Shown piece by piece: positions 5,709-33,030 of a DNA stretch of 34,259 nucleotides. The position numbers and the translations under genes were made by a program. Within the stretch, counting starts at the first letter, position 1. Each line of letters starts with the position of its first letter. This stretch comes from Pseudomonadota bacterium. Its GTDB lineage: Bacteria; Pseudomonadota; Gammaproteobacteria; Burkholderiales; Sulfuriferulaceae. Below the pieces are notes generated by a model that was given only the letters and a program-made list of their open reading frames with translations, was not told the origin of the DNA and made no database searches. Location: assembly GCA_021795395.1 (NCBI GenBank), contig JAJYPN010000031.1:1-34259 (forward strand). The letters run 5' to 3'.

Positions 5709-6413
5709 ATGAGTCACGCAACCCGGTTGTTGCTAAATGATGCGGTATTGCTGGCAATATTTTTGCTGGCAGTTGATCCCGTGTTGGCGCAAGGTTCAAA
5801 TTCGGGAGAGGTGTCGGCTCAACAACGCGAGGCCATGCAGCAAGCGCAGTCCAGCGATGCAATGGATCAGCAATATCAGATCGATCAGCAATTGTTGCAA
5901 TTGGATAGGCAGAAATTGCGCGACGGAAAAGCCCAGGGCGCTGATGCGCAAACGCTGCATGCTCTCCAGCAAACAGTAGATGCCGCACAAGCGAAATTGA
6001 ATACCGACTTCGATCGGGTATCGAATTTGCATCAGAGTTCGCAATTCATGCAGCAGGAAGTGCTCGGATATCATTTGCTGCATGCGGCGGATCGGCGCAA
6101 GCGCTTGCAGCAGGAGCAAGCACAGCGTTTGGCGCAGGAAAAAGAGCATAAGGAAACGTTGCGCGAGCGTGAAGCGCAGAAACTTCAACAGCAAGCTTTA
6201 TTGGTGCAGCAACAACAGTTGCTGATTGCGCAGCAACAGAATTTGCTGGCGGCAGAGCAGCAAAATCAAAATCAGACCTATCTGAATGGCGGCTATTTGT
6301 ATTCGGATTTTAGCGGTTGGCCGATGGATGCGCCAGGATGGTGGCGCAGGCGTGGACATCCACGCATTTCTTCAGGCAAAAAGCCGTTGCCTAATCGGCC
6401 GAGCGCCAGATAG
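5709..6413 (+). CDS. Secreted Gln-rich coiled-coil protein
   Basis: The 234-residue protein has a hydrophobic signal segment (LLLNDAVLLAIFLLAVDPVLA, residues 7-27) with a likely cleavage after ALA-like VLA, so it should be periplasmic. Residues 35-200 are almost entirely helical and Gln/Ala/Leu/Glu-rich with heptad-like repeats (LQQEQAQRLAQEKEH, LLVQQQQLLIAQQQ). They are followed by a Tyr/Trp/Gly-rich tail and a basic C-terminus. AAGGAA precedes the ATG. I do not recognise a family; low-complexity composition makes homology calls unreliable. It might be a structural or envelope-associated protein. Confidence 0.7.
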   Translation: MSHATRLLLNDAVLLAIFLLAVDPVLAQGSNSGEVSAQQREAMQQAQSSDAMDQQYQIDQQLLQLDRQKLRDGKAQGADAQTLHALQQTVDAAQAKLNTDFDRVSNLHQSSQFMQQEVLGYHLLHAADRRKRLQQEQAQRLAQEKEHKETLREREAQKLQQQALLVQQQQLLIAQQQNLLAAEQQNQNQTYLNGGYLYSDFSGWPMDAPGWWRRRGHPRISSGKKPLPNRPSAR

Positions 6414-6535
6414 CAAAAAAAACATAACCGATTATGGCAAATCGGAAGAATAAGAAGGCATTACGATTTTTATAACGATCTGACGTCAGCAATCAACGAT
6501 GACACAAGCCTGATAAATCATATAGACTGGTTGAT

Positions 6536-7297
6536 ATGATAACGCATGCTTCTCTGTCCTATGCCACCCTGATACAGAATCCTTTGCTCTGGGGCATCGC
6601 CGGCGGCATCACTCTGGCAGCCTTTTATGTCCGTGCGGTGATCGGCTTTGGTTCGGGACTAATTTCGGTGGCTTTGCTGACGCTTGTTTTCCCCATAAAA
6701 GAAGTGGTACCCGTGGTGCTGCTGCTGGACTTGCTCGGTTCCATGCTACTGGGCGCTTACGATTTCAAGGAAATACGCTGGCCGGAATTGCGCTGGCTGG
6801 TTCCCAGCGTCGTGATCGGGCTGGCCATCGGCGCCTTTATTCTCGCGGATATCAATGATCAGAAGCTCACCCGTTTTCTTGGCGTGTTCATTCTCGCTTA
6901 CGTGGGTTACCAGCTAGCAATGAAACCCGAACGATTACCCCAGGCCGGATTGCCATGGGGCGTGCCGCTGGGGATTTTTGGTGGCCTGGTGGGCAGCTTA
7001 TATGGCGGAGGAGGGCCGCCTATCGTCGCTTACCTGCAAATGCGCCATCTCGACAAACGCGCTTTCCGCGCCACGTTTCAGGGTATTTCCCTTGCCGAGA
7101 GCCTTCTCCGGGCGTTTATGTATATAGCGCTCGCCCTGCTGACCCGGAAACTGATGGTGGTATTCCTCATGCTGATTCCGCCGCTGCTGCTTGGTCTGTG
7201 GACAGGTAATCGCTTGCATATGCGCATTAATCAACGAGCTTTTCTCATGGGGACCATCGCGGTCCTCGCCATGGTTGGCCTGAAATACCTTATCTGA
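6536..7297 (+). CDS. TSUP (TauE/SafE) family membrane permease
   Basis: This family moves sulfite, sulfonates or related organic anions across the inner membrane. The 253-residue protein is strongly hydrophobic with about seven to eight predicted membrane segments in two repeated halves. Each half has the family-type glycine-rich loop: FYVRAVIGFGSGLISVALL near residues 26-44 and GGLVGSLYGGGGPPIVAYLQM near residues 149-169. The second is the classic TSUP signature. It stands alone between unrelated genes, so the substrate cannot be inferred. No good ribosome site is seen before ATG 6536. Confidence 0.88.
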   Translation: MITHASLSYATLIQNPLLWGIAGGITLAAFYVRAVIGFGSGLISVALLTLVFPIKEVVPVVLLLDLLGSMLLGAYDFKEIRWPELRWLVPSVVIGLAIGAFILADINDQKLTRFLGVFILAYVGYQLAMKPERLPQAGLPWGVPLGIFGGLVGSLYGGGGPPIVAYLQMRHLDKRAFRATFQGISLAESLLRAFMYIALALLTRKLMVVFLMLIPPLLLGLWTGNRLHMRINQRAFLMGTIAVLAMVGLKYLI

Positions 7298-7467
7298 ACG
7301 AGGGGTTTGCCCCATGCAGGCCATGACCACCCTTTATAAAACCGATTGGGCAAACGTTTCCGCAACCGCTTCGGGTTCGGGGTAAGCACCTAAAATGATT
7401 ATCGGAGCCATGATACGTAAACTCGTTCATGTCGCTCATGGGTTCTCAAAACGGGGCTTAAAACATC

Positions 7468-7503
7468 TTGTTTCGACTTCCCAATTCATTTAATATTGTA
7501 CAA
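7468..7503 (+). promoter_or_regulatory. yefM-yoeB promoter with TGTACA operator
   Basis: A sigma-70-like promoter reads TTGTTT at 7468-7473, 17 bases, then TAATAT at 7491-7496. The perfect palindrome TTGTACAA lies at 7496-7503, touching the -10 box and the expected transcription start. TGTACA is the known core of YefM-YoeB operators, so autorepression by the antitoxin complex is the expected control. Only one core is obvious. The promoter lies inside the longest open frame and shows that translation does not begin at TTG 7468. Confidence 0.7.
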
Positions 7504-7524
7504 CTTATTGATCAGGTTAAAGCT

Positions 7525-7782
7525 ATGAAAGTCGTTACCTATAGTCATGCGCGTAATTCGCTAAAGTCCGTTCTGGATGATGTCGTTCAAGACGCGGACG
7601 TGACTATTATCAGTCGCCGCGATGCGGAAGGAGATGCCGTAGTGATGTCTCTGGATAGCTATAACAGCATCATGGAAACGCTGTATTTGACCAGTAGCCC
7701 GGCGAATGCTGCCGCCTTGGCCCGGGCGATTGCACAAGATAAAGCAGGGCTTGCTCAAGAACGTCAATTGTTAAACGATTAG
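7525..7782 (+). CDS. yefM: YefM/Phd-family antitoxin
   Basis: The 85-residue product begins [20 protein letters not shown], the classic N-terminal DNA-binding part of YefM, followed by [40 protein letters not shown]. That is a near-textbook antitoxin. The C-terminal tail ([19 protein letters not shown]) would wrap the toxin. I chose ATG 7525 because the 19 upstream in-frame codons cover the promoter and operator. It binds and neutralises the YoeB RNase made from the next gene and represses the operon. Confidence 0.93.
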
Positions 7783-7789
7783 CCAAACG

Positions 7790-8062
7790 ATGAGGAGTAT
7801 TCGATTTGTGCCCGATGCATGGGATGCTTATCTGTATTGGTACGGGCAGGATAAGAAAACGCTTAAGCGGATTAATATCCTGATTACCTCCGCAGCGCGT
7901 GATCCGTACTCGGGTATCGGCAAGCCGGAACCGCTGCGCGGCGATTTATCCGGTTACTGGTCTCGACGGATAGACGATGAAAATCGTTTGGTGTACCGCG
8001 CAACCGAATCTGAGTTAGTGATTATTGCTTGCCGTTTTCATTATGATAGTGGTTCCTATTGA
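7790..8062 (+). CDS. yoeB: YoeB toxin, ribosome-dependent mRNA endonuclease
   Basis: The 90-residue toxin cleaves mRNA in the ribosomal A site. It matches E. coli YoeB closely, with AWDAYLYW near residues 10-17, [26 protein letters not shown] and ENRLVYR. All expected catalytic residues are present at +1 offset: E47, R66, H84 and Y85 (E46, R65, H83, Y84 in E. coli). It starts seven bases after the yefM stop with a GAGGAGT-like site overlapping the ATG region. The toxin looks intact and is paired with a complete antitoxin. Confidence 0.94.
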
Positions 8063-8084
8063 AAATCCGGATTGATATGATAGT

Positions 8085-8258
8085 CATCCAATTGCAATCC
8101 GTCGCTCGGTATAAGCGTTCTTGGAAAAACTACAGTCAAGCCGGCAGTGTTTGGATAAGGCGTGAAAACAGCTAATACTCATAGTCTTGGCAAACAATGC
8201 GGGAGGAGATTTTCGCGGTTGCGATGTCGTAAAATATGTAATTATCCGATTCATGTAT
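8085..8258 (-). pseudogene. Decayed HIT-family gene fragment
   Basis: Reading the minus strand from 8258 gives xHESDNYIFYDIATAKISS, RIVCQDYEY, a TAG stop, and after a frame change AVFTPYPNTAGLTVVF and PRTLIPSDGLQLDD. This lines up residue by residue with the first 58 residues of the intact HIT protein at 2919-3383. Lesions are an ATA in place of the start ATG, C-to-Y in the FCDI motif, an in-frame stop, a frameshift, and loss of everything after the LDD segment, including the His triad. It sits just downstream of the frameshifted GNAT gene on the same strand. Confidence 0.85.
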
Positions 8259-8297
8259 CCTGTTCTCCTGGTAATCAAGAATTTTATTACGAAGAAA

Positions 8298-8835
8298 TCA
8301 TTTAGCCGGTCCATTAGTATCAAGAGACATAAGCGAAACCTCGTAGCGTATTTCCTTCAATTGCGTATCGCCAATAGTGATAAATTTCATCATCGCATCG
8401 TTGGCAATGAACCCGCAGGAAGTATAGAAACTCAGGGCTCTCCTGTTTTCCGATAATACCCATAAAGTTAAACGTTCGAATCCGCGAGATGTTAGTCTTT
8501 TTTTTGGCGGTATCGAGCAAGCCTTTTCCAAAACCGCAGGACCAATATTCTGCTGTTACATAAACAGCTTCTATTTCTCCCACCACAGACGATGCATCGT
8601 CGTCGCGCGATGGGCCGAAAGCAATCCAGCCAATAATTAATCCATTGTGTTCAGCCACCCAGATTTCCGGCGTGCCCAATTTAATTGCGTTTTCCCATGT
8701 CTGCCTCGAAGTATCGACCGATAATCCGGCAAGATATTTCTCCGGCAAAATATTTTTGTAAGCTATACGCCATGTTTCGACATGAATTTCAGCAATTTTT
8801 AGAGTGTTTATGAAATTGGCTGGTCTGATATTCAT
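8298..8835 (-). pseudogene. GNAT-family N-acetyltransferase, frameshifted at an A8 tract
   Basis: The first part, starting MNIRPANFINTLKIAEIHVE, carries a GNAT fold through EIWVAEHNGLIIGWIAFG, EIEAVYV and the acetyl-CoA loop CGFGKGLLDTA. After eight consecutive A residues (T8 at 8498-8505 on the plus strand) the frame is lost. The homologous continuation, RLTSRGFERLTLWVLSENRRA then LSFYTSCGF, runs in another frame to 8298. Removing one A restores a normal 178-residue protein. It may be a true pseudogene, a phase-variable gene, a slippage-rescued gene or a sequencing error. No good ribosome site is seen before ATG 8835; an upstream in-frame ATG at 8883 is possible. Confidence 0.8.
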
Positions 8836-9023
8836 GTGAAATATTAAATCGTTACTTGTTCTTGAAAAAAGAATTTTCAGCATTTGAAAGACGATAACAG
8901 CTTTTTGTTACCGTCCTATTTTGTTTGGATATTATGGCGTTGCAATATTGATCCCTGGTTGTCCGTATCAAGAAAAGCAAGGCTTTTATTGCTTTGTTCC
9001 GCCGTTAACGCCATGCCGACTTC

Positions 9024-9031
9024 GCCGATAA
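9024..9031 (+). promoter_or_regulatory. Candidate sigma-28 (FliA) -10 element upstream of flhB
   Basis: GCCGATAA at 9024-9031 matches the sigma-28 -10 consensus at all eight positions. A weak -35 candidate, TTAA at 9005-9008, lies 15 bases upstream where TAAA is expected. The box is 52 bases before the flhB ATG, and fliA lies in the operon it would drive, so positive feedback is possible. The poor -35 keeps this tentative. Confidence 0.42.
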
Positions 9032-9083
9032 TGAAACTCATGAATCCGTCTTGGATGGGTTGGTTTAACGGGGTGACGGAGCG

Positions 9084-10256
9084 ATGGCTGAAGACAGCGA
9101 TCTTGAAAAAACGGAACAGGCGTCGCTGCAGCGACTGGAGAAAGCCCGCGAGGAAGGCGATGTGCCGCGTTCGCGCGAGTTGGCTACTTTTACGGGCTTG
9201 TTGGCGGCAGGGAGTGCGATCTGGATTTCGGGCGACCGGCTGATTCGTCAACTGGAAGCGAATTTGACTTCGGGTATGAATTTCGATCGTGCGCGGGCGT
9301 TCGATTTTACCTTGCTATATTCCTATCTGGAGCGCGATTTGCGCGATTTGCTGCTGGCTTTCGCGCCGGTGGCGGGCGTTTTGATTCTGGTTGCTGTATT
9401 TTCACCCGCGCTGATCGGCGGCTGGCTATTCAGCGCCAAAGCGCTGACGCCGAATTTTTCCCGTATCAATCCTTTGACCGGTATCGGCAATCTGTTTTCC
9501 ACGCAATCGATCGTGGAACTGGTCAAGGCGATCGCCAAGGCGACGCTGGTCGGCGTCGTCGCCTGGCTGGTGATCATGAAGCAGAAAGAAGCCGTATTGG
9601 GCCTCGGACTGGAGCCCTTGCACGCCGGAGTCGCGCATATGGCGAATCTGCTGTGGATCGCGTATATCTCGATGACCGGGGCATTGGGTTTGATCGTCAT
9701 GATGGACGTGCCTTATCAATTGTGGCATTACTCGAACAAGCTCAAGATGACGCGGCAGGAGTTGCGTCAGGAAGCCAAGGAATCCGACGGCGATCCGCAG
9801 ATCAAGGCCAAGATACGCGCTCAGCAGCGCGAAATGGCCCGGCGGCGGATGATGTCGTCGATTCCGACTGCCGATGTGGTCGTCACCAATCCTACGCATT
9901 ATGCCGTGGCGCTCAAATATGCAGACGGCGCGATGCGTGCGCCTGTCGTCGTCGCCAAGGGTGCAGACGAAGTCGCGGCCAAAATCCGCGAGCTGGCGCT
10001 CGAACACGCCATCCCAATTCTGGAAGCGCCACCGCTGGCGCGGGCCTTGTACCAGCACACGGAACTCGAACACGAAATCCCCGAAGCGCTGTATACCGCC
10101 GTCGCCGAAGTGCTGGCGTATGTATTTCAGTTGCGCATTTACCGCGAGCAAGGCGGCGTCGCGCCGGTTACGCCTGATGAAATCGCTGTGCCGCCCGAGC
10201 TCGATCCTCTGCAGGCAGCGACCGTACTGCAACCCCTTGCCGGAGACCTGGCATGA
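9084..10256 (+). CDS. flhB: Flagellar type III export protein FlhB
   Basis: FlhB is the export-gate switch that changes substrate class from rod/hook to filament. The 390 residues start MAEDSDLEKTEQASLQRLEK. They have four membrane segments up to about residue 210 and the cytoplasmic autocleavage motif N269-P270-T271-H272, exactly the Salmonella position. GGGGTGA about eight bases before the ATG is a good ribosome site. The last four bases ATGA overlap the flhA start. A 119-codon frame at 8884-9243 that overlaps the start is a shadow. The C-terminal tail after FlhBC is longer than in Salmonella. Confidence 0.97.
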   Translation: MAEDSDLEKTEQASLQRLEKAREEGDVPRSRELATFTGLLAAGSAIWISGDRLIRQLEANLTSGMNFDRARAFDFTLLYSYLERDLRDLLLAFAPVAGVLILVAVFSPALIGGWLFSAKALTPNFSRINPLTGIGNLFSTQSIVELVKAIAKATLVGVVAWLVIMKQKEAVLGLGLEPLHAGVAHMANLLWIAYISMTGALGLIVMMDVPYQLWHYSNKLKMTRQELRQEAKESDGDPQIKAKIRAQQREMARRRMMSSIPTADVVVTNPTHYAVALKYADGAMRAPVVVAKGADEVAAKIRELALEHAIPILEAPPLARALYQHTELEHEIPEALYTAVAEVLAYVFQLRIYREQGGVAPVTPDEIAVPPELDPLQAATVLQPLAGDLA

Positions 10257-12331
10257 ACGGATTTAAATTGCCGGCCTGGCTGTCGGTGCCGAATGGCGCC
10301 ATTTTAGTCGCACCGTTTATCATCATCGTCATGCTGTCGATGATGGTGCTGCCTTTGCCGCCGTTTATTCTCGATATTTTCTTCAGTTTCAATATCGCCT
10401 TGGCGATCATCGTTCTGCTGACCAGCCTGTATACCGTCAAGCCGCTGGATTTCATTGCTTTCCCTACCGTATTGCTGGTGAGCACGATGCTGCGCCTGTC
10501 GCTCAACGTCGCCTCGACCCGGGTAGTGCTGACTGAAGGCCACACCGGTCCCGATGCGGCGGGCAAGGTGATCGAGGCGTTCGGGCACTTTCTGATCGGC
10601 GGTAATTACGCTGTCGGTATCGTGGTGTTTATCATATTGACTATCATCAATTTCATGGTGGTCACCAAAGGCGCCGGCCGGATCGCCGAAGTCGGCGCAC
10701 GGTTTACCCTCGATGCGATGCCGGGCAAACAGATGGCGATCGACGCCGATCTGAATGCCGGGCTGATCGGCGAACAGGAAGCGCGGCTGCGGCGTACCGA
10801 GGTCGCGCAGGAAGCCGAATTTTACGGCGCGATGGACGGCGCGAGCAAGTACGTGCGGGGCGATGCGGTCGCGGGCATCATGGTCACGATCATCAATATC
10901 GTCGGCGGCCTGATCGTCGGCATGGCGCAGCACGATCTCAGCTTCAATGTCGCGATCAAGGATTACACGCTGCTGGCCATCGGCGACGGTCTGGTGGCGC
11001 AAATCCCTTCGCTGATCATTTCCACCGCGGCCGGTATCGTGGTGTCGCGCGTAGCCAGCGAGCAGGATATCGGCGCTCAATTGCTCAATCAGTTGTTCGC
11101 CAAGCCGGGGGTATTGTATATCGCTGCCGGTATCGTCGGCGGCATGGGCATCATTCCGGGCATGCCGCATACAGCGTTCGGCATACTGGCTGCCGTTCTG
11201 GCAGGAGGCGCTTTTGTGCTGACGCAGAAAGCGAAACTGGCTGCGACTGCGCCTTTACCGGCACCTGCGGCCGCGCCGGCGGAAGAAGAGGCCAGCTGGC
11301 GCGATATCATTCCGGTCGATACGCTGGGACTGGAAGTGGGATATCGGCTCATACCGCTGGTCGATAAGGCGCAAAGCGGCGATCTGTTGAAGCGGATCAA
11401 GGGGATACGCAAGAAATTCGCGCAGGAAATCGGGTTTTTGCCGCCCTCGGTGCACATCCGCGACAATCTGGAGCTCAAGCCTTCCGGTTACCGCATCACC
11501 TTGAAAGATGTGGAAATCGGCAGCGGCGAAGCGCATTTCGGTCAGTTTCTCGCTATCAACCCTGGCGTGGTCAGCGGCACTTTGCCCGGTATCGCTACGA
11601 CCGATCCCGCGTTCGGCCTGCCTGCCGTGTGGATCGATGCCAGCCTGCGCGACCAGGCGCAGACGATGGGTTACACGGTAGTGGATTCCAGTACCGTGAT
11701 CGCTACTCATCTCAATCATCTGATTACCGAACATGCCGCCGAACTACTGGGCCGGGTCGAAGTGCAGCAGTTGCTCGATCATCTGGCGACCGAATCGCCC
11801 AAGCTGGTCGAAGATCTGGTGCCCAAGGTCATGACTCTGTCGGCCTTGCAAAAGGTATTGCAGAATTTATTGAGCGAGGGCGTGCATATCCGCGATATGC
11901 GCACCGTGATCGAAACCCTGTCGGAACACGCGCCGCGGATTCAGGATACCAACGAATTGACGGCACTGGTGCGGATTGCGCTGGGTCGCGCCATCGTGCA
12001 GCAAATCTATCCGGGTGCTACAGAATTATCGGTGATGGCGCTGGATAACAAACTGGAGCGCCTGCTGCTGCAAGCCATCCAGGCGAGCGGACCGGATCAG
12101 GCAGGAATGGAGCCCGGCTTGGCCGATGCGCTGGCGACCCAGGCCGACGCAGCGACGCGGCAGCAGGAAAAAATGGGTTTGCCGCCGGTATTGCTGGTGC
12201 CGCATTCCTTGCGCGTATTGCTGGCACGGTTTTTACATCGCGCAATTCCGCAATTAAAAGTATTGTCGCATTCGGAAATCCCGGATTCCAAAACGATCAG
12301 GGTGACTAATTTGGTAGGGGGACAGGCATGA
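10253..12331 (+). CDS. flhA: Flagellar type III export protein FlhA
   Basis: FlhA is the proton-driven ring of the flagellar export gate. The protein has the normal length of 692 residues. Membrane segments fill residues 15-310, interrupted by the conserved FHIPEP cytoplasmic loop (RIAEVGARFTLDAMPGKQ and MAIDADL, residues 143-166). A variable Ala/Pro linker near residues 325-345 leads to the soluble C-terminal domain that docks export substrates. The gene overlaps both flhB and flhF by four bases, giving a tightly coupled operon. Confidence 0.97.
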   Translation: MNGFKLPAWLSVPNGAILVAPFIIIVMLSMMVLPLPPFILDIFFSFNIALAIIVLLTSLYTVKPLDFIAFPTVLLVSTMLRLSLNVASTRVVLTEGHTGPDAAGKVIEAFGHFLIGGNYAVGIVVFIILTIINFMVVTKGAGRIAEVGARFTLDAMPGKQMAIDADLNAGLIGEQEARLRRTEVAQEAEFYGAMDGASKYVRGDAVAGIMVTIINIVGGLIVGMAQHDLSFNVAIKDYTLLAIGDGLVAQIPSLIISTAAGIVVSRVASEQDIGAQLLNQLFAKPGVLYIAAGIVGGMGIIPGMPHTAFGILAAVLAGGAFVLTQKAKLAATAPLPAPAAAPAEEEASWRDIIPVDTLGLEVGYRLIPLVDKAQSGDLLKRIKGIRKKFAQEIGFLPPSVHIRDNLELKPSGYRITLKDVEIGSGEAHFGQFLAINPGVVSGTLPGIATTDPAFGLPAVWIDASLRDQAQTMGYTVVDSSTVIATHLNHLITEHAAELLGRVEVQQLLDHLATESPKLVEDLVPKVMTLSALQKVLQNLLSEGVHIRDMRTVIETLSEHAPRIQDTNELTALVRIALGRAIVQQIYPGATELSVMALDNKLERLLLQAIQASGPDQAGMEPGLADALATQADAATRQQEKMGLPPVLLVPHSLRVLLARFLHRAIPQLKVLSHSEIPDSKTIRVTNLVGGQA

Positions 12332-13626
12332 ACGTACAAAAATTTATAGCGAACAGCGCACGCGAAGCATTACGGCAAGTGCGCGATACATTGGGGGCGG
12401 ATGCAGTGATTTTATCCAATCGCAGCGTCCCAGGCGGAGTGGAAATCGTCGCGCTGGCGAGCGAAGATATTGCCTCGCTGGTCAGCCCTGCAGCAGTAAG
12501 GGAAGCCGAACCGCTGCCCGACTTGATGGCGTTTGCGCCGTCGGCGCCCGGCAGGGCGGCCAAACGGCGCAATCAGGCAGCCGATCTCGCCGAAGTGGTG
12601 CAGACGGCGGCTCCGGCTCAGATTCCTGCCGCATCGAGTGCCCCGCAAGCTGCGGCCGAACTGACCGATGTCATGCAGGAAATCCGCGACATGCGTAACA
12701 TGCTGGAAATGCAGTTGAGCGAAATCGCCTGGGGTGCAACACAGAACCGGCAACCGCATCGTTCAGCCATCATGCGCGAACTGCTTTCTGCCGGATTCAC
12801 TCCCAGTCTGTCGCGGCATCTGACCGAGAATCTGCCCGAGGTCAAAACTCTGCAAGAAGGTGTGTCCTGGGTGAAAACCGTGCTGTCGCGCAACCTGCTC
12901 GTCAAGGACAACGAAAACGAAATTCTGGAAAAGGGCGGCGTCTTTGCGCTGGTCGGGCCGACCGGCGTCGGCAAGACCACAACTACGGCAAAACTGGCCG
13001 CGCGCTGTGTGATGCGGCACGGCGCCAGCAAGCTGGCTCTGATCACGACTGACGGCTATCGTATCGGCGGCCATGAACAACTGCGCATCTACGGTAAAAT
13101 TCTGGGAGTGATGGTGCATTCGGTGAAAGACGAAAGCGATTTGCGCATCGCGCTGGAAGAACTGAAAAACAAGCATACCGTGCTTATCGATACGGTCGGG
13201 ATGAACCAGCGCGATCAAATGGTGGCGGAGCAGGTGGCGATGCTGTCGGGGGCGGGCACACCGGTCAAACGCCTGTTATGCCTGAATGCGACGTCTACCG
13301 GCGAGACCCTGACCGAAGTGGTGCGTGCCTATCAGGGGGCAGGGCTTGCCGGATGCATCATCACCAAGCTCGACGAAGCCGCGACCATGGGCAATGTGAT
13401 CGACGTGATCATCCGCCACAAACTGGCTCTGTATTATGCCGCCAACGGTCAGCGGGTTCCGGAAGACCTGCATTTGATGAATCGAGAGTTGCTGATCGAT
13501 CGCGCTTTCCGGCAGAAACGCGAAACACCGGGATTCCAGCTGCAGGACGACGAGCTGGCGCTGGTGGTGTCGGGTGCAGCACGCGTATCCAGGGACTATA
13601 CTTTGCGTGAGGTGAATTTTGGCTAA
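12328..13626 (+). CDS. flhF: Flagellar placement GTPase FlhF
   Basis: FlhF is an SRP-type GTPase that sets the site of polar flagellum assembly. It begins MNVQKFIANSAREALRQVRD, the usual B domain. A variable Ala-rich linker follows (residues 55-110), then an N domain and the G domain with the P-loop GPTGVGKTTTT at residues 210-220. Also present are TTDGYRIGGHEQLRIYG, the G3 segment LIDTVGMNQRD, and TKLDEA as the G4 motif. At 432 residues it has family length. Pairing with flhG suggests a polar flagellum with number control. Confidence 0.96.
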   Translation: MNVQKFIANSAREALRQVRDTLGADAVILSNRSVPGGVEIVALASEDIASLVSPAAVREAEPLPDLMAFAPSAPGRAAKRRNQAADLAEVVQTAAPAQIPAASSAPQAAAELTDVMQEIRDMRNMLEMQLSEIAWGATQNRQPHRSAIMRELLSAGFTPSLSRHLTENLPEVKTLQEGVSWVKTVLSRNLLVKDNENEILEKGGVFALVGPTGVGKTTTTAKLAARCVMRHGASKLALITTDGYRIGGHEQLRIYGKILGVMVHSVKDESDLRIALEELKNKHTVLIDTVGMNQRDQMVAEQVAMLSGAGTPVKRLLCLNATSTGETLTEVVRAYQGAGLAGCIITKLDEAATMGNVIDVIIRHKLALYYAANGQRVPEDLHLMNRELLIDRAFRQKRETPGFQLQDDELALVVSGAARVSRDYTLREVNFG

Positions 13627-29182: not shown

Positions 29183-29210
29183 CTATATTTTATTTAAAGG
29201 AGAGATGATC

Positions 29211-29846
29211 ATGAAAAATGCAAACACCCCTACACGTTTCACTCGTTCGATGACCGGTCTGGCTTTGCTGGCAGCGCTGGCCTTCCCGGCATTGCCTGCC
29301 GCCGCAGCTGATGCCTATCATATCCAGACCGGTAACCCCGCCGGTAATTATCAAATCGATCCGGTGCATTCGATGGTGACATTTACCGTCGGGCATCTGG
29401 GTGTAAGTGAGCTGGTGGGGCGTTTTGACACGATCAGCGGCAGTTTCAGTCTGGATTCGGCCAATTCCGATCAGGCACGGGTATCAGTACAAATCCCGAT
29501 AGACAGCCTGGACACTAATTTTGCCCAGCGCAACAAGGATCTGCTGGGGCCGGATTATTTCAATGCAACACAATTCCCTACCATGTCGTTCACCAGCACG
29601 AAGGTGCAATGGCAAAGCAGGAACGCCGGTCAGCTGACCGGCAATCTGACCTTGCACGGCGTGACCCGTCCGGTCACTTTCAATATCCGTCGCATCGGCG
29701 CAGGGCCTGATCCATGGGGCGGTTACCGGTCGGGATATGTTGCAACCACGACGATCAAACGCAGCGACTTCGGTATGAACTATATGCTCAACGGTATCAG
29801 CGATTCGATTCTGGTGCAATTGAACATCGAAGGCAAGCGTCAGTAA
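29211..29846 (+). CDS. YceI-family periplasmic lipocalin-like protein
   Basis: YceI proteins have a beta-barrel that binds isoprenoid lipids in the periplasm. The 211-residue protein starts at ATG 29211, eight bases from GGAG; ATG 29205 is too close to that site. A signal peptide (SMTGLALLAALAFPALPAAAA) is followed by the barrel with YQIDPVHSMVTFTVGHLGVS, GRFDTISGSFSLD, LTGNLTLHGVTRPVTFNI and KRSDFGMNYML. Ubiquinone or polyprenoid binding is the family idea, and the exact ligand here is unknown. Confidence 0.93.
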   Translation: MKNANTPTRFTRSMTGLALLAALAFPALPAAAADAYHIQTGNPAGNYQIDPVHSMVTFTVGHLGVSELVGRFDTISGSFSLDSANSDQARVSVQIPIDSLDTNFAQRNKDLLGPDYFNATQFPTMSFTSTKVQWQSRNAGQLTGNLTLHGVTRPVTFNIRRIGAGPDPWGGYRSGYVATTTIKRSDFGMNYMLNGISDSILVQLNIEGKRQ

Positions 29847-29853
29847 TCCTTCC

Positions 29854-29880
29854 GACAGGCAGCATGGCTGCCTGTCTTTA
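29854..29880 (+). terminator. Hairpin after the YceI gene
   Basis: GACAGGCAGC (29854-29863) and GCTGCCTGTC (29867-29876) form a perfect 10-bp stem with a three-base loop, followed by TTTA and a T-rich stretch. It starts eight bases after the stop codon and looks like an intrinsic terminator or an attenuator limiting read-through into the next gene. Confidence 0.7.
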
Positions 29881-29901: not shown

Positions 29902-30789
29902 ATGAATCTCTTTCCTTCTGCGGTCATGACCAGCCTGTTGCTTCAAACCGTGGCTTGGCCGATGCTGGTAGTAATGAGCGGTTTGGCGATGGGGCTGGGA
30001 ATTCTGCGCCGTATGGCGTCTCCCGGAACGTTGCCGTTGATAAGTGCGTTGACGATATGCGCGGCGATGCTGACCGCGTATCATTTGATTTACGGGAAAT
30101 TTACCCTGCCGCCGCTCCAGGCGCTGGACTGGATGCCTTTGCTGATCGCCGCAGCGTTGCCGGTGTATGCCATGGACGATTTGTTCGATTTTGGCGCAGC
30201 GACGCGTTTTGTCCTGATGGCGGCGACCGTCGTGCTTGCCGCCGTGCTCTTGTTGCGACCCGTATTGGGTCAGTTGCCGCTAATGCATGCAGCCTGGGTG
30301 CTTACTGCGGTGAGCGGCTTGTGGTTGGCGGCATGGGTTTATTTCGATCGGCACGCGCTGCACAATGCAAATTCGGGCATGACCTTGCTCGTCGTATCGG
30401 CCGGTACGGCCATCGTTTCGGTATTGACGGGCAGCACGCTGTTGGGGCAACTCGGAGGTGCCCTGGCGGCGGTGCTCGGAGCGTGGCTGTTGTGGAACTG
30501 GCCGCGGCCCCATGCCCTGCTGGGGCATTCCGGTACGGCTGTCGCGGTTCTGGCATTGGGCTGCGTCATGCTGGTCGGGCGTTTTTATTCCGCGACCCCA
30601 TTGCGTATCAATGCCTTGCTTCTGGTCGCATTGGCCGCCAACGTGCCGGTGACGTATCTGCTGCGGCGGAGTGGCCGGAATCCGGACGGCCCGCTGGCGG
30701 TGGTGTTGACCGGCGCGGCGGCGCTCGTGCCAGTCGCTCTGGCGGTGGTGCTTACGGTGATGTTTTATATGCCTCAGGGCGATGAATGA
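29902..30789 (+). CDS. Polytopic membrane protein of unknown function
   Basis: The 295-residue protein has about eight to nine hydrophobic helices, few charges, and paired motifs such as WPMLVVMSGLAMGLGIL, LLIAAALPVYAMDDLFDFGA and LLVALAANVPVTYLLRR. GGAGA about eight bases before the ATG supports the start. A conserved-looking DDLFDF acidic patch sits at the edge of a membrane helix. It resembles uncharacterised membrane proteins near respiratory genes but I cannot name a family. A parallel 300-codon frame is a shadow. Confidence 0.75.
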   Translation: MNLFPSAVMTSLLLQTVAWPMLVVMSGLAMGLGILRRMASPGTLPLISALTICAAMLTAYHLIYGKFTLPPLQALDWMPLLIAAALPVYAMDDLFDFGAATRFVLMAATVVLAAVLLLRPVLGQLPLMHAAWVLTAVSGLWLAAWVYFDRHALHNANSGMTLLVVSAGTAIVSVLTGSTLLGQLGGALAAVLGAWLLWNWPRPHALLGHSGTAVAVLALGCVMLVGRFYSATPLRINALLLVALAANVPVTYLLRRSGRNPDGPLAVVLTGAAALVPVALAVVLTVMFYMPQGDE

Positions 30790-30813: not shown

Positions 30814-31257
30814 ATGTGCATACGCGGCATCAATCATATTACCTTGAAAGTGCGCGATCTTGAGGCTTCCGACCGGTTTTACCGGGAAATTCTGGGCTTG
30901 GAGCAGGTAGGGGAGCGTTCGGGAATGCGGTTTTATTCGACCGGTGCGCATCATCATGACCTTGCCCTGCTTCAGGTAGGAAAGGACGCCTTACCGCCCG
31001 CTGCCGAGCAGACCGGTCTCGCGCATTTCTGCCTGAATGTGGTGGACGAAGCCGCATTGTGTCTGCTGTATCGAAAATGCCGCGACGCCGATATTATACT
31101 TTCTGAAGGTGTGAACCATCTGGTCATGCATGCCTTTTATGCGTTGGATCCGGATGGTCATCTGGTTGAACTGGGAGTGGACATGCCGCCCGAGACCTGG
31201 ATCGATATACGGAATCCCTACGCGAAAGATCTTCCGTATCCTGATGTTTCGGACTAA
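30814..31257 (+). CDS. VOC-superfamily protein, extradiol-dioxygenase-like
   Basis: The 147 residues show the paired VOC fold. INHITLKVRDLEASDRFYRE supplies the first metal-ligand histidine, GLAHFCLNVVDEA the second, and DGHLVELGVDMPP the glutamate. AGGAG lies upstream of ATG 30814. It is similar in type to catechol dioxygenase-like and fosfomycin-resistance-like proteins, but the substrate is unknown. It is separated by 24 bases from the membrane gene and could be co-transcribed with it. Confidence 0.88.
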   Translation: MCIRGINHITLKVRDLEASDRFYREILGLEQVGERSGMRFYSTGAHHHDLALLQVGKDALPPAAEQTGLAHFCLNVVDEAALCLLYRKCRDADIILSEGVNHLVMHAFYALDPDGHLVELGVDMPPETWIDIRNPYAKDLPYPDVSD

Positions 31258-31322
31258 GAAGATTCGTGTTTTTATGGATTAAACGGCCGATTGTAATGGA
31301 ATGATAGAAAACGGAGATCAAC

Positions 31323-32090
31323 ATGCTTCCAGCCAATGAGATTCAAATGTCGCCGGCCCAGGCCATACGCGATTTGCGTTCAGCCCTGGATTTTCTTGAA
31401 TCCTGTCCGGGCCAATTACTCACCACCAAAAAAGCAGTCGATCCAAACGGGGAATTGGCCGGGATTTATCGCAGGATAGGGGCCGGTACGCCGGTCGCGC
31501 CGCCGACTCGCATCGGACCGGCCATGGTATTCGAAAACGTCACAGGTTACGACATGCGGGTGGCGGTAGGACTGCTTGCCAGCAGAGAACGAACGGCATT
31601 GCTATTGAACAGCAGTATCGAACGCCTGCCGTTCACGTTGCTCGATGCGCTCAATCATCCCATCGCTCCCGTGACGGTTCCCGCATCGCAGGCGCCTTGT
31701 CAAGAAAACATCCATCGCGCTCCCCTTCGTTTGGGATGGCTGGCGCAGAACGAAGTCGTTCGTATCCGGCGATTGTTATTGAAAACCGGTATTCCTTGCC
31801 TTGTTCCCGATCTCGAAGTAGAGCGGTATCTCACTTTGATGGGGCTGGACAAGAAACTCGAGGATGGGAAGATTCGCTTTGTGCTGCTCAAACGGATAGG
31901 GGAAGCCAGCGTCGTTTCCGACATTCCTGAGCGAAGCTTGAAAGCTATTTTAAGCGAAGCCGTTAATTCGCCGTTTTTTCTGTCAAATGCGGCGGAAACC
32001 CGACAGGTAAATCCGGTTTCAACTTCAGGATTCCGATTCATGCCTGAATTGCTACCGGGACCGTCGATCAAAAATGAGCGAATAGCTTAA
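31323..32090 (+). CDS. Chimeric protein: UbiD N-terminal domain joined to AroB C-terminal segment
   Basis: Residues 12-132 read like the N-terminal domain of UbiD-family prenylated-FMN decarboxylases (AIRDLRSALDFLE, RIGPAMVFENVTGYDMRVAV, LLASRERTALLL, HPIAPVTV, SQAPCQENIH). From about residue 135 the text turns into the C-terminal part of 3-dehydroquinate synthase (LRLGWLAQNEVVRIRRLLLK, RYLTLMGLDKKLEDGKIRFV, LLKRIGEASVVSDIPE). The UbiD catalytic Glu/Arg residues and the AroB NAD- and metal-binding parts are both absent. The frame is open through the join near 31716-31725, and GGAG precedes the ATG. It could be a pseudogene by deletion fusion or a kept novel protein. The 3' end overlaps ctaB on the other strand by 23 bases. 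Confidence 0.75.
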   Translation: MLPANEIQMSPAQAIRDLRSALDFLESCPGQLLTTKKAVDPNGELAGIYRRIGAGTPVAPPTRIGPAMVFENVTGYDMRVAVGLLASRERTALLLNSSIERLPFTLLDALNHPIAPVTVPASQAPCQENIHRAPLRLGWLAQNEVVRIRRLLLKTGIPCLVPDLEVERYLTLMGLDKKLEDGKIRFVLLKRIGEASVVSDIPERSLKAILSEAVNSPFFLSNAAETRQVNPVSTSGFRFMPELLPGPSIKNERIA

Positions 32091-33030
32091 CCGGCCTGTC
32101 TTTAACTGGAAGTGGGGTGACAGGAGTGGAAAAATCCATGGACATCGTCAAGCTCAAGGCTACGACCATCGCGATGGAATAACCGATGGATTTGCGCGCC
32201 CAGCGGCGGCTGTCGGCTTCGTTGCGGTCGCGCCAGACAACGCGCATCCAGTCCAGCCCCAAAAAAAGTATTGCAGCAAAATAAATCGCGCCTGTATTAT
32301 GGGTAAAAAACAGCAAAAGCGCGCATAGCGTAAATAGACCTATATAAACCGGCATGGCTCTTTTCGTCCAGTTTATCCCGCGGACGACAGGGAGTACCGG
32401 GATCGAGGCTCGGGCATAGTCGGTTTTGTGCAGCACGGCGATGGCGTAGGCGTGCGGCAGCTGCCATAAAACGTAGATGGCGAATAAAATGATTCCTGCA
32501 GTATCCAATTGTTGACTGGCTGCGCAATATGCAGCAAGCGGCGGCGCCGCGCCTGATATGCTGCCCACCCAGGTTCCGTAGCGACTGCGTTTCAGCCACA
32601 GGCTATACACGCCGACGTATACGGCGAATCCGATACCGGTAATCGCAACCGCCAATCCATCCGTATAATGAAACAATAAAAACAGACCGAGCAAAGCCAG
32701 CGTCCAGCCCAGTAGATAAGCGTGTATCAAGGGGATCCGCTTTTTGACCAGAGGGCGATTACGGGTGCGTTGCATGAGTGCATCGATATCGCGGTCGATC
32801 CCGTTGTTGAGGGTGCAAGCGCCGCCGATGACGAGAGCAATGCCGCAGAGCGTTGCCGCCAGCAGTTGAAAATCGGGATATCCGCGGCTGCCCAAAAAGA
32901 AACCGCCTGCTGCCGATATCAGATTGCCGAGTATGATGCCCGGCTTGGTCAGGGATAGATAATCCTTGAAAGCGACCGTATTGAATGGTTTATGAGCCGG
33001 AATGTATACGTTTCTGTCTATGGACTTCAC
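32068..33030 (-). CDS. ctaB: Protoheme IX farnesyltransferase (haem O synthase)
   Basis: This UbiA-family prenyltransferase makes haem O for the bo3-type oxidase encoded next to it. The 320 residues have eight to nine membrane helices. The family motifs LTKPGIILGNLISAAGGFFL and the Asp-rich NNGIDRDIDALMQRTRNRPLV, which binds farnesyl diphosphate via Mg2+, are visible. It is also named cyoE when it follows cyoABCD, as here. It is 47 bases downstream of cyoD. Confidence 0.95.
   Translation of the reverse strand: MKSIDRNVYIPAHKPFNTVAFKDYLSLTKPGIILGNLISAAGGFFLGSRGYPDFQLLAATLCGIALVIGGACTLNNGIDRDIDALMQRTRNRPLVKKRIPLIHAYLLGWTLALLGLFLLFHYTDGLAVAITGIGFAVYVGVYSLWLKRSRYGTWVGSISGAAPPLAAYCAASQQLDTAGIILFAIYVLWQLPHAYAIAVLHKTDYARASIPVLPVVRGINWTKRAMPVYIGLFTLCALLLFFTHNTGAIYFAAILFLGLDWMRVVWRDRNEADSRRWARKSIGYSIAMVVALSLTMSMDFSTPVTPLPVKDRPVKLFAHF

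Follow-up and report, generated by a model that had tools for sequence, protein, structure and literature searches.

An in-frame chimera of UbiD-type decarboxylase and 3-dehydroquinate synthase fragments, probably a scar of deletion or recombination

How did one open reading frame come to carry parts of two unrelated enzyme families, and could its product still have a function? This question is raised by a 255-codon frame (31323-32090, plus strand, 255 aa) near the end of the window, by which we mean the whole stretch of 34,259 nucleotides analysed here. The frame runs from an ATG at 31323 to a TAA at 32090 without internal stop and has a ribosome-site-like sequence before it (Table 1), as the initial annotation had stated. 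It contains about 120 residues of a UbiD-type N-terminus, the last ~80 residues of 3-dehydroquinate synthase (AroB) and an unmatched tail of ~42 codons. When the two parts were scanned separately, residues 1-132 fell into the UbiD family and the first ~80 positions of residues 133-255 into AroB, so the chimera proposed from the sequence alone was confirmed, with both matches far beyond chance. A single known full-length family spanning both halves is close to impossible, since Pfam and NCBIfam put the halves in separate families; no PDB sequence was common to the match lists of the two halves. No Pfam family matched residues about 215-255 (43 residues scanned), a part that the initial annotation had passed over. 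Gene content and kinship suggest a betaproteobacterium-like host for the window and a gammaproteobacterial class for family f125, with which it is compared below.

Table 1. Features of the window and of the three f125 loci compared with it (positions of the f125 loci are their own).
Feature	Position	Strand	Basis or remark
YceI-like protein	29205..29846	+	45-49% identical to the YceI-like coding sequence in L079, L080 and L081
Membrane-protein-like frame	29902..30789	+	weakly similar (37-39% over 82-110 aa) to proteins of L080 and L081
VOC/glyoxalase-fold protein, upstream of the chimera	30814..31257	+	FosA-type glutathione transferase and extradiol dioxygenase models, all below cut-off
Ribosome-site-like GGAG	31313-31316	+	6 nt 5' of the ATG, read directly in the sequence
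N-terminal fragment of a UbiD-type (AroY/VdcC-like) decarboxylase: UbiD_N and ~20 residues of the next domain	31323..31724	+	profiles, PDB, intact relatives
Join, where both parental matches overlap over 9 bases	31725..31733	+	intact UbiD and AroB queries
3-dehydroquinate synthase, C-terminal end only: counterpart of residues 280-359 in an AroB of 362 residues	31725..31964	+	profile, PDB, AroB query
Tail, 42 codons including the stop	31965..32090	+	no family match; base composition not coding-like; last 23 bp shared with the 3' end of the facing gene
Prenyltransferase of the UbiA family, convergent with the chimera (CyoE-like by reading)	32068..33030	-	family assignment; overlaps the tail by 23 bases
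L081 (G782:C51): TIM-barrel (AP_endonuc_2), DAHP synthase, AroB, UbiD/VdcC-type	7666-12397		all four core genes, in this locus only
L080: shorter DAHP-synthase frame, AroB, UbiD	7908-11783		DAHP-synthase profile 9-173 of 270; no TIM-barrel gene by eye
L079: AroB, UbiD	5896-8305		stretch ends near AroB

The first half had been placed at residues 12-132. The UbiD_N domain (PF20695 in Pfam) scored 53.3 bits against a cut-off of 24.3 (E 1.1e-14 to 3e-14), residues 14-130 aligned with the N-terminal part of the 3,4-dihydroxybenzoate decarboxylase AroY (PDB 5o3n, E 1.6e-32; also 5ny5 and 5o3m), and the VdcC model of NCBIfam covered residues 16-133 at E 1.4e-19 to 3.6e-19, a score far under its whole-protein cut-off. 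With the intact 494-aa UbiD of genome G779 as query, its residues 11-133 corresponded to 31365-31733 at 72% identity, and the identity of this half to full-length proteins in family f125 was 58-72%. The intact relative in L081 carries UbiD_N at 19-102, a Rift-related domain (PF01977) at 112-318 and UbiD_C (PF20696) at 325-459, whereas in the chimera a single UbiD domain is kept, followed by some twenty residues of the second; neither PF01977 nor PF20696 had a Pfam match in it, so that nearly all of the Rift-related domain, which we take to be the prFMN-binding one, and all of UbiD_C are absent. All 22 columns that are invariant among 13 relatives are unchanged in this half, and in a tree of 14 rows the chimera belonged to no well-supported set. 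A prFMN-binding domain is named for UbiD enzymes in the accessible part of one report, where the catalytic residues E282, R173, E277 and L439 of Fdc1 are described as conserved in VdcC (PMC8379154). By reading, the fragment appears to end before the equivalents of these residues.

The second half had been assigned, at residues 135-212, to the end of AroB, and residues 136-207 indeed matched profile positions 268-340 of 344 of TIGR01357 (E 7e-9 to 2.4e-8), as well as PDB 5eks when the C-terminal half was used as query (E 4.5e-11). The chimera reached 33.6 bits against the whole-protein threshold of 305 bits of TIGR01357. The Pfam model DHQS_C gave E 0.01-0.023, under cut-off, the match being to the last 43 of the 144 positions of this C-terminal-domain profile and continuing into the sequence after it. 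The intact 362-aa AroB of genome G045, with which the limits in Table 1 were obtained, was 58% identical over this part. The last ~80 residues are thus common to AroB and the chimera, including the MGLDKK...RFVLL segment; the conserved DKK motif kept there is, as we assume, part of the AroB active site. The N-terminal domain of AroB (PF01761) had no Pfam match, and AroB residues 1-279 are without counterpart. Against 32 of the 51 available AroBs, 5 of 25 near-invariant columns were altered in the chimera, the most in any of the 33 rows; the 32 others had 0-4 of 25-27 altered.

The AroB piece is 48-49% identical to the aroB of its own genome versus 58% to the G045 AroB, whose gene adjoins aroK-like and dgt-like genes (names by eye). 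Recent descent from the genome's own aroB was rejected, the identity being only 48-49%; the corresponding tree grouping was not formally rejected (p-AU 0.12), and neither was a grouping with the AroBs of the genus (p-AU 0.14). Identity to AroBs of its own order rises to 58%, as against 29-42% to those of the f125 clusters, and tree tests did not separate the two sources (p-AU 0.066).

The tail shows another composition than the parts before it. The GC content at codon positions 1/2/3 was 0.63/0.49/0.60 for the UbiD part and 0.60/0.35/0.55 for the AroB part, against 0.52/0.48/0.41 for the tail, taken over 44 codons from 31959. Other AroBs stop close to the position at which the tail starts, and the tail is probably a read-through beyond a lost aroB stop. 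Such an accidental extension is unremarkable because an open run of 40 codons has a probability of ~0.11 at the base composition of the tail. A terminator-like match at 31954-31971, at the expected AroB end, was discarded, the scan having given 4 matches versus 4.5 expected by chance. In both halves the wobble base differs from that of relatives far more than codon positions 1 and 2, and saturation is nearly reached there, the fraction of wobble positions that differ between chimera and relatives being 0.55-0.72. This pattern points to past selection on working parent genes, and the time since the fusion is not datable from it; nor can the fusion be dated as fresh, since no orthologue of it was found. 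No direct repeat of at least 14 bases occurs at the join, so a repeat-mediated deletion was set aside, although this test is weak because lost breakpoints are invisible. The AlphaFold2 model of the chimera, from a shallow alignment of nine sequences, had a mean pLDDT of 40 and was uninformative.

Upstream of the chimera, the membrane-protein, VOC and chimera genes may form a transcription unit apart from the YceI-like gene. The VOC protein had no match at E 1e-10 in any of the other 17 same-genus genomes. The facing UbiA-family protein has an 83% identical N-terminal part in the same-genus genome G009. A 10-pair terminator-like hairpin lies at 29854-29876, 3' of the YceI-like gene, and the total number of matches in that scan was not above chance.

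If the fusion had been kept as a gene, the same architecture might be expected in related genomes, a search that the initial annotation had proposed. No second species with the fusion was found in 60 related genomes or in the further samples. Among 61 genomes (its own, 17 of the same genus, including G009, which is only 64% complete, and 43 of the same order), both halves occurred in one frame in its own genome only; the other matches in this set were of the AroB type, with four weak ones of the UbiD type (E 3e-4 to 8e-4), and two of the 61 genomes were without match. The UbiD half was matched in 2/368 genomes of the class (E 1e-8), 2/398 of the order (E 1e-10) and 4/397 of the phylum (E 1e-12), samples that overlap in part, all eight matches being part of 496-526-aa frames. 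Six of the 20 genomes of family f125 had a match to the UbiD half, in frames of 490-521 aa. The plasmid search matched 64 of 72,556 records and the phage search 5 of 50,697, and none of these (0/64 and 0/5) covered 80% of the query. The genome-contig search gave eight loci, none with a match beyond residue 128; in 97 other loci no match linked the UbiD half across the join, and four AroB matches strayed over it by 20-37 residues. One viral-contig match (L078, residues 106-160, across the join) was rejected as chance, being inside an unrelated 318-aa frame whose matched part had no Pfam match; by eye this frame encodes a sulfotransfer/PAPS-reductase-like protein. The chimera is therefore a singleton in the genomes (E. 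coli excepted), plasmids, phages and viral contigs searched, a scope that does not extend to metagenome contigs. In the literature accessible to us, with subscription journals mostly outside its scope, a query on dehydroquinate synthase-UbiD fusion proteins brought up no such fusion and only CoQ10 engineering, and one on chimeric genes, deletion and pseudogenes only work on Staphylococcus competence. Papers on dehydroshikimate dehydratase, PCA decarboxylase and DAHP synthase were, to judge by their titles, mostly reviews or metabolic engineering.

The missing parts of the two parent genes were likewise not found in the genome's own assembly, which consists of 57 contigs and is 92.8% complete. 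Besides the chimera there were only two weak UbiD-like matches, one of 28% identity on contig C5 (query residues 233-437) and one of 36% on contig C1 (query residues 6-112), and both are too distant to be the missing UbiD part. The C1 piece (G000:C1:34488-34790) is a UbiD N-terminal part near a contig end and the C5 piece (G000:C5:93920-94510) a C-terminal part in a 253-aa frame, possibly a single housekeeping ubiD split by the assembly. The only other AroB match was a full-length frame on contig C48, an ordinary housekeeping-type aroB that is 73% identical to the G045 AroB.

UbiD and AroB genes do occur together, unfused, in family f125. Three of its genomes (loci L079, L080 and L081; Table 1) carry an intact AroB gene followed by a UbiD gene. 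The neighbourhood is fullest in G782, is reduced to a partial DAHP-synthase frame, AroB and UbiD in G773 and, near a contig end, to AroB and UbiD in G771. Genes for YceI, a membrane protein, a LigB extradiol dioxygenase and a GST lie near the AroB-UbiD pair. The window resembles these loci in its nearby YceI coding sequence, in a membrane protein weakly similar to that of two of the loci and in having UbiD and AroB sequence together, and it looks like the remains of a cluster related to the f125 type. It differs in that the f125 genes are unfused, with aroB upstream of ubiD, in that LigB dioxygenase and GST genes take the place of the VOC protein, and in the low identity of the cluster AroBs to the chimera's AroB piece given above. 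The reverse order, an intact ubiD upstream of aroB, was not found in the f125, class-sample or order-sample neighbourhoods.

In our estimation, with a probability of roughly three in four, the chimera was left behind by an illegitimate deletion or recombination that affected an aromatic-acid gene cluster or the DNA beside it, and it probably has no enzymatic function. We infer such an event because the searches gave no second copy, the missing halves were not found, the AroB part has drifted, and the non-coding-like tail enters the facing gene. A ubiD-type decarboxylase gene would have been broken ~134 codons from its start and fused to an aroB-like gene near codon 280 of the latter, the frame being kept by a chance of roughly one in three. 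If both genes were on the same stretch and as long as their relatives, the loss would amount to at least ~1.9 kb (361 ubiD codons and 279 aroB codons). With the stop of aroB lost as well, the frame would continue for ~42 codons through what had been non-coding DNA and over the end of the convergent UbiA-family gene, and the message may still be translated. As nearly all of the middle domain of UbiD, its C-terminal domain and most of AroB are missing, the product should be without either parental activity; given the role that we assume for the middle domain, it is not expected to bind prFMN in the manner of UbiD, nor to work as AroB. The aroB-ubiD order of the f125 loci is the wrong one for a single deletion and counts against it, and the AroB piece is nearer to AroBs of its own order; an unseen parent order or another recombination partner therefore has to be supposed. 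The intact frame, the ribosome site and the 22 unchanged UbiD columns also count against reading the locus as a scar.

These last features are what speaks for a retained fusion, in which the UbiD_N domain and the helical end of AroB would bind an aromatic acid or associate with a full-length UbiD or AroB, a reading that we consider unlikely. The initial annotation had left the choice between a fresh deletion fusion and a retained protein; the chimera is real, the singleton state, the AroB drift and the tail favour deletion or recombination, and positive evidence for retention goes no further than the features just named. Small partner proteins of UbiD enzymes do exist, namely VdcD (PMC8379154) and LpdD (PMC10865409), according to the accessible parts of these reports. 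VdcD is described there as a zinc ribbon protein (PMC8379154) and LpdD as being without sequence homology to UbiX or UbiD (PMC10865409), and for these reasons neither is a precedent for a UbiD fragment. Further against retention, no orthologue of the fusion turned up in the searches, no intact AroY-type UbiD was found in the own assembly as a partner, and both the changes at near-invariant AroB columns and the entry of the tail into the facing gene look like decay. It is very unlikely that the UbiD_N domain, released from its enzyme and with an AroB end as cap, has been maintained as a small protein that binds aromatic acids or partners an enzyme, and thus as a gene newly made by fusion; if retained, it would represent the birth of a protein out of two pathway fragments. 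An assembly artefact, with two loci of one or two organisms misjoined near 31725-31733, is quite unlikely, even though the assembly is fragmented, the halves have different nearest kin and the join was found in no other genome. A simple misassembly of two loci is disfavoured because the remainders of both genes were not found on the other contigs, the missing 7% being where they could still lie; moreover, the parental matches overlap by just 9 bases, and a misjoin would be in frame with a one-in-three chance. Taken as a recombination scar, the locus is one more deletion-type gene fusion, real but ordinary. Family-based annotation could nevertheless label it a UbiD-family protein, though no decarboxylase is expected.

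The f125 AroB-UbiD neighbourhood is a more useful by-product of the comparison than the chimera itself. From its context, the TIM-barrel (AP_endonuc_2) protein is probably dehydroshikimate dehydratase-like, and by analogy the set of TIM-barrel protein, DAHP synthase, AroB and UbiD could channel carbon of the first shikimate steps to protocatechuate and catechol. A second f125 type (L035, L082 and L083) has a UbiD gene followed by a TIM-barrel gene, and its UbiD is the closest to that of the chimera (71-72%); AroB had no match in these three stretches, that of L083 being only 4 kb. In L082 (8333-17794) and L035 (975-10252) the UbiD-type decarboxylase and TIM-barrel genes are followed by three proteins of ~720 aa; the one scanned had FG-GAP repeats and UnbV/ASPIC, and a gene judged LysR-like by eye is close to them. 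In L036 (3-4668, G269:C246), a UbiD-type decarboxylase gene lies with genes for a TrpF-like PRA isomerase, for tryptophan synthase alpha-like and transglutaminase-like proteins and for a UbiX-like flavoprotein, which is an unusual aromatic cluster.
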